DNA of 64,000 bases, from contig JBBHKE010000099.1 of assembly GCA_037447655.1 (NCBI GenBank), positions 116,630 through 180,629 of the forward strand. Direction: 5' to 3'. Source of the stretch: Zygnema cylindricum. Taxonomy: Eukaryota; Streptophyta; Zygnematophyceae; Zygnematales; Zygnemataceae. Below are positions 21,485-24,497 of this stretch, in pieces. Below the pieces are notes generated by a model. That model was not told the origin of the DNA, ran no database searches, and saw only the letters and a program-made list of their open reading frames with translations. Position 1 is the stretch's first letter. Each line of letters opens with the position of its first letter. The translations under genes were made by a program, and so were the position numbers.

Positions 21485-23092
21485 TTGACCACATCCGATC
21501 CGGATGCGGATCCTAGATCGTCGTCAGTGCGGTCTGGTCTGAAATCTACGTCATCATTGTCCTCGATGTCATCTAGGTCATACTTAGAGGGGACTGAAGA
21601 AGACTTTTCAGAGGAAACCTTTCCACCTTCTCACACTCGGAGGTTCCCTGCCAGCCCAGCTTTGTTACAATTGGCGCATCCTCTTTTTTACGACATGGCT
21701 TCCTCTTCAGAGGGATCCATGGGTAAGATGCAATTCTGATTTTTCGGATTAAAGGACACCATGTCTTTATCGCGTTTCCGGATGTTATATTACACAAAAA
21801 TGAGGGATCTAGCCTTTAGATATCATGATATGTTTGACTTTCGTGTCACCATTTCCCTTCTTCGTCGATACCACCGTGGTACGCCCCTCACTCTCTAAAC
21901 TCGCAAGTAGAAGGATGTTCTTGCGATGACAAAGTTTGTGGCCTCCTTTGCAGGGTTACCAGAAGTCCTCGGCCAGGTGGATATCCCATATCAGGCTGCG
22001 AGACTCCCATATCAGGCTGCGAGACTGGCTATATTAGATACTAGCGGGGACGAGTTGTATCTGGCTATCCCCAAGGTTCCTTGTCAGCATGCAGTGGCTG
22101 CCCGAGCGGCGGTTCCAATTAGAGCCGAGGGAACCACTCCTTTACGTGACCCTGCCTCAGTCATGTTTGACATCCTTCAAGAGGAGTACCGGATGCAAAA
22201 TCTGGATCAGATCAAAGAGTTGATGAACTTCGAGCGTAGGCCAGGTGAAACTGCTCCTGCTTTGCGAGCTCAGATGGAAACCGTGTGAGAAGCATTACGT
22301 GACCTCATGTCCGATACGGAGGCTGTCCAAAAACTTTTGGGACGGTTTCAAGGTCCATCAAAGAGGTTTGTCCAAAACCACCTCAACCACATGCATGGAC
22401 TGAAATTCACCTTTGAGCAAGCGGCTCAATACGCGGTAGAGTATGAGATGCAGACATCCTAGTGCGACGCCCATGAGCAGTCTAAACCTCCTCACAGGGA
22501 ACCGGCTAAACTATCTCCTCCTCCACCTAAAATCCCATGGCCTCCTAATAGGCCCCAGAAGAGGCCAGCCATGGGAACTCCACCCATTAGTCTCGGAAAC
22601 CGAATGTGTTTCCGATGTGGAAAAATCGGGCACGATGCCCGCATGTGTTCTGACAAGGCGGCCACTTGCACTCATTGCCACCAAAAGGGACATTATGTCC
22701 ATCGCTGCCACATCAAAGACTTTGATTTCACTAATCAAAATCAGATAAAGAACGACAGAATTCTGACCCGTTCTACGAAACCAGTCACTTCGTCTAAGGA
22801 GACCGAGAAGGAGGAAGCTCCTCCTAAGATCTCTCGTAGAGAGAGACAAAAGGCCAAGCTTCAAGCCTCAATGGCGGCCATGATGAAAGAGCAATTTGTA
22901 GCTTTCATGGCGGAAATGAAACCCCATTTTACAGGGATTGCTAGGACCGTTGTCGACATGTCGTCGTTGGCCTGGCGAACCCTTCGGAATTACACTGTCC
23001 AACAACGGGTGGCCACATTTGAAAATGGCTCAACATACAATAACCTAGTGGGCCCATATTGGATGGCAGTATTCATGAGGCTTATCGGGTGA
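21485..23092 (+). pseudogene. Retrotransposon gag with two zinc knuckles (element D)
   Basis: Plus-strand pieces (21485-21739, 21926-22288, 22571-23092) read as one gag broken by stops and small frameshifts. The N-terminus is Ser-rich, the capsid-like part is alpha-helical (ILQEEYRMQNLDQIKELMNF; LGRFQGPSKRFVQNHLNHMH), and two CCHC knuckles follow: CFRCGKIGHDARMC and CTHCHQKGHYVHRC, then a basic Lys/Glu-rich tail. A 21-bp tandem duplication at about 21986-22030 repeats LPYQAAR. Two knuckles and the protease that follows suggest a Ty3/gypsy-like gag. Frame breaks include a TGA near 22286 and a TAG near 22460. Confidence 0.75.
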
Positions 23093-23640
23093 AGGAGCGC
23101 TTAAGTATTCTTTCAACGATGTTGGAGGATGTACCGAAAGCCCTTCCCCTCGTTGATGAGGTTGTAGCAACAACCGCTTTGAGGTCTTTGCAACATAACC
23201 GCAGTCTTTCAGTGGTCTAGCTGGTTACAGCGGATGATCGCCGTAACATAGATCCCCATATCACTTTCCTTGATAATTCTCGGGGATCATTTTCTGTTAA
23301 CGACAGTGTCCACCCCTCGCTTCCCCTCATGGACACTAAGGCCAAACCCGTGATCCTCGGATCCCAATTTGCCCTCAAGCTTGGTCTGACAGCAGACAAG
23401 CTTCAAGCTAATGCCACCCGACTTCTCACTTCGGTTAGGACTACGGAACCGGAATCACAAAGGACCCGCTCATTTTTCAAACACGAACCGAAAATGAGTC
23501 CGTTTAAATTTCTGTTCATGCATTAGTCACTAAATGCAGCGATTACGAATTTTTAGTTGGCTAGGATGTTATATTCCGAGTCGGTGGTGGTGTGGATATC
23601 CCCGACCATACATTTTTTTATCGACCAACACACTTTCCAG
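23093..23640 (+). pseudogene. Retropepsin-like protease and linker of element D
   Basis: The frame continues from gag with the fold expected of a retroviral-type protease: SVHPSLPLMDTKAKPVILGS. The active-site triplet is DTK where DTG or DSG is expected, so the site looks mutated. Downstream, CSDYEFLV then FRVGGGVDIPDHTFFY resembles the C-terminal strand and the link to the next domain. Stops occur near 23218 and 23524. Confidence 0.55.
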
Positions 23641-24497
23641 AGCGCAAAATATGTCTCCCTCTCATTTCAAGCCGCCGACCTTTGACCACCATTGCCTATT
23701 CGGCTTGGGCTGTTCCCGCTTTTTACAAAAACTCCGTTGGGGAGGAGATTTTCCACTCATTGTCGGTAGAAGAAATCTTGCCAGATATTTCTCCCTTACT
23801 CGAGCTCATTGCGAATCCCGACTTTCTTATCAATTCTCACACATTTGACAATATGTGAAGTCCACATTATCTATTCCATTAACAACTATCCCTCCTATAC
23901 CTATAGTTGCAACTGATCCTTTAGGTTTCCTTCCTATCAGATGGAAGCCCGTACAGCTGAGTCCAAATACGGACAGGGTCGTTATTTTAGAATTATTCGC
24001 CGGGATCGAAACATCATTATTGTCATGTTTACGGAATGGTCTCCTCATCAGTCACTACTATACATTAGATATTGATGCATTAATAAGAAAAACACAATTG
24101 CACCACTCTAATCTCTTGCATTCACAGTATCCACAGTTATTTCCAAAGTCAACCTTTTTACACATGCACAGTAGACTTCTACAAGACATCCGCATCCATA
24201 GTAATGATCATATACGGGATGTCGAACCGATAGACCTTCTTTTTGGGGGGTGGGAGTGTCTAGGGATGTCTCGGGCCGTCAAAGGTCTTGGTTTGGTGGA
24301 TCCCCGTACCAAATTGTTTTTTGAGCTTTTGAGGGTTCTTCATTTTCTTCAAACCATGGCTAAGCGTGTCGGATACATTTAAGAGAACGTCGCCGCTTAT
24401 AATAAACCTCGGCCTACAGTTATGGTTGACTATAAGCGCATAGAACACCTTATCAGACAACCTCTAGTAATTGATGCCACTCGGCATGGGTCCCTGG
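23641..24497 (+). pseudogene. C5 cytosine DNA methyltransferase domain carried by retrotransposon D
   Basis: The open frame at 23855-24382 has methyltransferase signatures in order: motif I VVILELFAGIETSLL (S-adenosylmethionine loop, residues ~42-56), motif II acidic LDID (71-74), DLLFGGWECLGMSRA (residues 127-141) with the catalytic-loop Cys at codon 24257-24259, GLGLVDPR, and, after one in-frame TAA (24380-24382), motif VI ENV. The standard PCQ is ECL here; Cys is kept but Pro and Gln are lost. DATRHGSL at the end resembles the start of motif VIII, where the family B LTR breaks in at 24498. The target-recognition domain and motifs IX-X are absent. It follows gag and protease on the same strand, so it belongs to the element. 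This copy is inactive. Confidence 0.8.

Follow-up and report, generated by a model that had tools for sequence, protein, structure and literature searches.

A truncated Gypsy retrotransposon with its own DNMT3-type cytosine methyltransferase in Zygnema cylindricum, and its better-preserved relatives

The DNA analysed here (the window) is a stretch of 64,000 nucleotides of Zygnema cylindricum (assembly GCA_037447655.1, contig JBBHKE010000099.1, C79:116630-180629). Positions 18946-24497 of the window are the truncated, dead 5′ part of a Ty3/Gypsy long terminal repeat (LTR) retrotransposon with its own C5 cytosine methyltransferase. In its relatives in the same genome, the enzyme was fused to the other element domains, present in many copies, linked to a PHD finger, equipped with the full set of catalytic motifs and under purifying selection. 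A preliminary description made from the letters alone had placed a gag with two CCHC knuckles, a retropepsin-like stretch and methyltransferase motifs in one direction, in decayed frames, at 21485-24497. These motifs were located, and the window gag, protease and methyltransferase were collinear with the open frames of the related locus L011 (70-82% amino acid (aa) identity, spread over several window frames). The start given in that description had to be moved, as the element begins at 18946 with a 5′ LTR; its end at 24497 was retained and is now explained as the junction with a minus-strand copia LTR. At the DNA level, 20199-24497 was 83-84% identical to the relatives L011, L020 and L028, and parts of 18946-20106 matched the LTRs of the same three loci at 68-87%, a lower or equal identity. 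The LTRs of the relative L014 begin with TGTCATGCCGC too, as at window 18946. The window copy has the 5′ LTR only. Its features are as follows.

18946..20091 (end approximate), plus strand: 5′ LTR, starting with TGTCATGCCGC; matches both LTRs of L011 and the start of the LTRs of L014.
20123..20208, no strand: AT-rich, mostly (TA)n tract between the LTR and the leader (inverted repeat I1).
21362..23053, plus strand: gag region with stops, found by tblastn with the L011 gag and the N-terminal part of the L011 long frame (70-77% aa identity).
22607..22648, plus strand: first CCHC knuckle CFRCGKIGHDARMC, by motif; Pfam zf-CCHC E = 0.017, below the cut-off.
22667..22708, plus strand: second CCHC knuckle CTHCHQKGHYVHRC, by motif.
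23296..23403, plus strand: changed retropepsin active-site stretch, by motif scan (MDTKAKPVILG against MDTGAKPxILG of the family).
23978..24497, plus strand: partial C5 cytosine methyltransferase domain, motifs I to VIII, by PF00145 match; one stop at 24380-24382.
23990..24010, plus strand: motif I, ELFAGIE, by frame reading.
24065..24076, plus strand: motif II, LDID, by frame reading.
24245..24271, plus strand: motif IV, GGWECLGMS, with the catalytic Cys retained, by frame reading and alignment.
24383..24391, plus strand: motif VI, ENV, by frame reading.
24473..24499, plus strand: start of motif VIII, DATRHGSLV, cut by the copia LTR, by frame reading and alignment.
24498..25562, minus strand: copia LTR inside the methyltransferase, the 3′ LTR of a minus-strand copia whose reverse transcriptase (RT; RVT_2) lies at 25756-26559.

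The DNA_methylase search that the preliminary description had proposed as a check gave a match of the window methyltransferase to PF00145 with E = 2.9e-6 (27.4 bits, curated cut-off 22, the stop given as X). Its identity to the enzyme of L009 was 68% over 174 aa, and ELFAGI, LDID, GGWECLGMS, ENV and DATRHGSL share one frame interrupted by one stop. MDTGAK was read in all 14 other rows of the protease motif scan (13 places, L004 and L026 being one place), and the window reads MDTKAK. The window's own protease piece had no Pfam match; Asp_protease_2 was found upstream of the methyltransferase in the relatives L019 and L014, below the Pfam cut-off only. No match in the window was obtained by tblastn with the L011 methyltransferase C-terminus, RT-RNase H or integrase, which indicates a copy cut before RT. 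As its stops, frame changes, changed protease motif and truncation show, the window copy is dead, in line with the earlier view of a decayed member of a methyltransferase-bearing class. The RNA family scan (at gathering cut-offs) and the tRNA scan of the window gave no matches. The repeats at 16504-17535 and 24498-25542 were considered as the element's own LTRs and rejected: they are 80% identical, lie 8 kb apart beside minus-strand copia frames, and the element's own LTR is at 18946. The former repeat heads a second minus-strand copia.

The searched genome was the window's own assembly (352.8 Mb, 2689 contigs). The Pfam DNA_methylase search gave at least 123 scored matches among 782 candidates, several of them within very long open frames. 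With the L009 methyltransferase as the query (1846 candidates, 125 scored), at least 126 matches at no fewer than 125 places were obtained, 28 of the 126 rows without an internal stop; both genome counts are lower bounds. The best-preserved relative, L009 on contig C1344, is one open frame of 2395 aa, in which Pfam gave the order zf-CCHC (below the cut-off), DNA_methylase, RVT_1, RT_RNaseH, Integrase_H2C2 and rve. The MDTGAK protease motif and a PHD match are also held by this frame. RT, RNase H and integrase thus follow the methyltransferase in a better copy, and the proposed position of the enzyme, after the protease and before RT, was found in the single frame of L009 and over two or more frames in other relatives. 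In L019 the same order runs across two overlapping frames (PHD 3.5e-10), and in L014 across three: two overlap, and the third follows an in-frame stop in RNase H (PHD 3.6e-10). The order RT, RNase H and integrase with the rve core, after the protease, was found in L009, L019, L014, L012 and L013, the protease being called by motif in the E-family copies (families are described below).

A host DNMT3 exon or pseudogene lying by chance beside a gag-protease element would fit the window copy taken alone, with its frame changes and its end at a copia LTR. This explanation is refuted by the single frame of L009, which fuses all the domains, and by the many copies of the enzyme at 125 or more places; we give it practically no credence.

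The direct LTRs of L014 are 1385 bp long with 4 mismatches, and the whole element is about 10.9 kb. From this near-identical LTR pair, L014 is a young insertion and shows recent activity. The LTR identity within one locus, for the parts covered, was 99.4% in L018 and 92 to 97% in L011, L020, L025 and L028; further parts of the L011 LTRs were 93% to 74% identical. A frame change near domain residues 190-250, in the C-terminal part of the methyltransferase, was seen in L014, L019 and L024, and L018 is open there. This common frame change may reflect decay, assembly error or something systematic.

The PHD pattern C4HC3 was plain in the open frames of L010, L011, L014, L018, L019, L020, L024 and L034, the last of which continues L009. 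The best 150 of 984 PHD candidates were paired with the 125 methyltransferase places. In 35 pairs the scored PHD finger lay 2764-4586 bases downstream of the methyltransferase on the same strand; within the ranges counted, no pair had it upstream on the same strand or on the other strand. Among the best 60 of 91 matches to solved PHD fingers, the nearest were PHF12, KDM5-type demethylases, WSTF, DPF and BAZ2, with ATXR5 lower. Several of these fingers are known to read unmodified H3K4.

Two families reside together in this genome. The E family, which includes the window copy, has motif IV GWECQGMS, and the P family has GWPCQGYS; over 321 aa, the methyltransferases of the two share about 41% identity. 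The P-family loci L012 and L013 hold methyltransferase, RT, RNase H and integrase in one frame. The family alignment comprised 24 loci and the window; L002, L007, L015 (which repeats L005) and L026 (which repeats L004) were left out, and L006 and L013, which are one place, were both retained. L007 (C514:126680-126928) had a DNA_methylase match and no match to either retrotransposon family at 1e-4, and it is possibly a host methyltransferase exon.

Open copies carry motifs I to X in canonical order: LFAGIG, VDID, GWECQGMS, ENV/ENI, AHRVR, the LPTLV region and the RxxLLGxxMD end. The best matches of the E family among the sequences of the Protein Data Bank (PDB) were DNMT3A, 3C and 3B (1.5e-10 to 3.5e-7), with HhaI at only 0.003, and the P-family enzyme was likewise nearest to DNMT3. 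By this sequence comparison, DNMT3 is the enzyme's nearest relative of known structure. In C5 methyltransferases the catalytic Cys is usually preceded by Pro, forming the PC dipeptide. The preliminary description took the change of PCQ to ECL as a sign that the lineage or this copy may have lost activity, and this was half right. Glu before the catalytic Cys does not signal decay, being found in 15/15 other E-family rows and in 18/18 further E-type places (33/33 sampled), and the window motif retains its Cys. Of the three residues, just the Leu is private to the window copy, L046 having a stop at that position. The further sample consisted of 20 places, 18 E-type and 2 P-type, some of them near-identical copies, and the type was assigned by the better whole-domain match, independently of the motif IV residue. 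In the E family this Glu is written with both GAA and GAG, so that the amino acid is retained as its codon changes. ECL was accordingly rejected as proving the lineage dead, Glu being common to the sampled E family in both codons.

Selection on the enzyme was estimated as the ratio of non-synonymous to synonymous change (omega, Nei-Gojobori) for E-family pairs only, over 120 codons. Between E subfamilies, omega was 0.04-0.12 where computable. The firmest values came from L004 against L009, L017 and L027, with a synonymous divergence (dS) of 0.79-0.89 and omega of 0.10-0.11. Among near copies, broken ones included, omega was 0.17-0.58, and the window gave 0.43 against L011 and 0.49 against L028. 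These values fit long purifying selection on the E family and a later release in the window copy.

Protein searches in other sources gave 39 related proteins, mostly environmental; P0029 is named Closterium sp. NIES-54 (38% identity). In P0008 and P0011, the methyltransferase follows the protease as in the window element (the P0011 protease is below the cut-off). It lies between RNase H and integrase in P0010 and P0018 and after RNase H in P0015. In P0009, P0012, P0013 and P0014 it precedes the integrase, and a PHD finger follows the integrase. One environmental chain, P0004, holds RNase H, a Glu-type methyltransferase and a G-patch in order. Pfam did not call the methyltransferases of P0004 and P0012, which were recognised from motifs and alignment, and it scored those of P0013, P0015 and P0018 below the cut-off. 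In a tree built from 25 methyltransferase domains, one side of a branch with support 99/98 consisted of the RNase H-side group, and the protease-side environmental rows did not form one group. The simplest reading of this tree would be a single change of the enzyme's place within Pol; a second capture from a related element is a possible alternative.

The motif IV residue was readable in 33 of the 39 proteins; it was Glu in 12, Gln in 10, Pro in 9, Arg in 1 and Lys in 1. The rows with Pro include P0007, a distant, ordinary-looking methylase. Since the searches are biased towards relatives of the query, and many rows are fragments without another element domain, these proportions are no census. 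On a tree of 38 rows, from which P0007 and 9 proteins without the motif or shorter than 170 aa were left out, the residue needs 5 changes. With P0007 excluded and 6 proteins unreadable, 24/32 proteins have Glu, Gln, Arg or Lys in place of Pro. Such frequent replacement would suit an enzyme that is no longer a standard DNA methylase and instead acts on RNA, namely the genome of the element, as a methylase, or has become a structural or nucleic-acid binding module. We consider this rather unlikely. In an alignment of 11 related proteins, the Cys, the ENV Glu and both motif VIII Args were invariant although Pro varies, and the selection on the E family also counts against a non-methylase role.

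Retrotransposons are normally silenced by DNA methylation, and because of this an element with its own methyltransferase is paradoxical. On balance, we lean somewhat towards a DNMT3-type methyltransferase element in which the enzyme within Pol methylates the element's own complementary DNA (cDNA) and the PHD finger steers insertion; the window copy no longer does so. The methyltransferase would enter the particle as part of Pol and stay near RT. There it would methylate the double-stranded cDNA before or at integration, and the PHD finger on the integrase would guide the element into chromatin whose histone H3 tails are in a particular state. The new copy would therefore be methylated by the time it arrives, its DNA shielded and quiet to the host.

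Several observations weigh against this self-methylation model. The observed/expected ratio of CpG was 0.85-1.05 in E-family stretches, 0.70 in the P-family locus L013 and 0.55 in a copia frame. On the window branch, transitions at CpG (31/279) were only modestly above other C/G transitions (99/1233), and A/T transitions (63/1689) were below both. With so little CpG depletion and so modest an excess of CpG transitions, inherited heavy CG methylation is not evident. Everything is in one frame in L009 only, 1 of 20 ten-kb loci; in the youngest copy, L014, the frame is broken within the methyltransferase and RNase H contains a stop, and no exact target-site duplication was seen in the flanks of L014. 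The PHD matches of the P family (L012, L013) are under the Pfam cut-off. The Pro-Cys dipeptide is present in the P family and absent from the E family, which has Glu. Most dS values between subfamilies are saturated or above 1.6. Finally, the Klebsormidium Gypsy DNMT3, the sole Gypsy retrotransposon DNMT3 assayed in its paper, showed no activity in yeast, a result that the authors call inconclusive (PMC5890265).

The enzyme may instead act mainly in trans, on host chromatin or other copies, so that silencing limits copy number or competing families and the element gains by sparing its host. The retention of the enzyme in many copies (125 places or more) and the co-residence of two families would suit such a role, and host benefit is one of the possibilities in the discussion of PMC5890265. 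The place of the enzyme inside Pol, beside RT, favours action on cDNA over action in trans, and a benefit to the host only would probably select poorly for retention within each copy. We regard the trans role as improbable and prefer self-methylation of cDNA.

The element combines traits known separately from other systems. Chromoviruses are Gypsy elements with an integrase chromodomain; they likewise have a histone-reading module at the integrase end, but here that module is a PHD finger, and a DNA methyltransferase is present as well. The closest described element is KnitGypsy-Dnmt3 of Klebsormidium nitens, a Gypsy element with Dnmt3 in Pol under purifying selection (de Mendoza et al. 2018, PMC5890265). 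As described in the covered text, it is like the Zygnema element in its Gypsy-type LTR affiliation, the Dnmt3-class enzyme in Pol and the purifying selection. It differs in that its repeats are DIRS-like, whereas L014 has a plain direct LTR pair, and two families with a Glu motif IV in one of them distinguish Zygnema. The word 'PHD' was not found in the text of PMC5890265 (figures outside the scope), and no Klebsormidium sequence turned up in any search made here. SymbioDIRS-Dnmt3 and SymbioLINE-Dnmt of Symbiodinium also have a cytosine methyltransferase inside the retrotransposon polyprotein, and in a yeast assay de novo CG methylation was obtained by the SymbioDIRS enzymes only (PMC5890265). 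Both differ in type, SymbioDIRS being a DIRS element with a tyrosine recombinase and SymbioLINE a LINE, whereas the element here is a Gypsy with a DDE integrase (rve). In the Ginger1 DNA transposons, a Gypsy-like integrase with a C-terminal PHD finger occurs in Ginger1-9_HM, as here (PMC2836005). However, Ginger1 elements are cut-and-paste DNA transposons; in the parts of PMC2836005 covered, no RT is named and 'methyltransferase' is unmentioned. Among the open-access papers listed (figures and supplements outside the scope), no title or abstract beginning described an element joining a PHD finger, a Gypsy integrase and a methyltransferase. The PHD finger, the two co-resident families, the selected Pro-less motif IV that also occurs in outside relatives and the two enzyme positions in Pol look new.

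Several further repeats were recorded. Copia LTRs of one family end inside methyltransferases of both families, at L001:145-1214 (P family) and at window 24498-25562 (E family); the same LTR was also matched in L015, L023 and L027 and, shorter, in L026 and L030. This could be ordinary nesting or a target preference. Nested copia pieces at 26925-30056 and 444-1634 contain repeats about 92-98% identical in both orientations, and a long purine-rich, GAGGGA-like tract with strong GC skew occupies 30043-31407. Two direct copies of 3883 bp with one mismatch lie about 2.9 kb apart at 41150-45032 and 47908-51790; no LTR-like TG..CA ends were seen on them, and they are either a very recent duplication or an assembly artefact. 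Between them sits a reading frame on the minus strand (46503-47117, reverse end untrimmed) without a Pfam match at 0.001, which by eye we take to resemble a plant GUX/PGSIP-type glycosyltransferase.

This genome offers a near-identical LTR pair, an open frame of 2395 aa, sister families with ECQ and PCQ, and a chromatin-reading finger in one set. With it, the questions of why the element methylates, what its target is and whether a Pro-less motif IV makes 5-methylcytosine become directly testable. The environmental relatives suggest that the class extends beyond the two lineages described at first. Tentatively, we also entertain a broader possibility, that these elements represent an old, widespread Gypsy clade, perhaps of the green lineage. 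Such a clade would combine an integrase PHD finger with a DNMT3-type enzyme in which the change of Pro to Glu or Gln is under selection and alters target chemistry or specificity, and the enzyme would have moved once within Pol, from between protease and RT to between RNase H and integrase. Its members would then be self-contained epigenetic parasites that both read and write chromatin marks.

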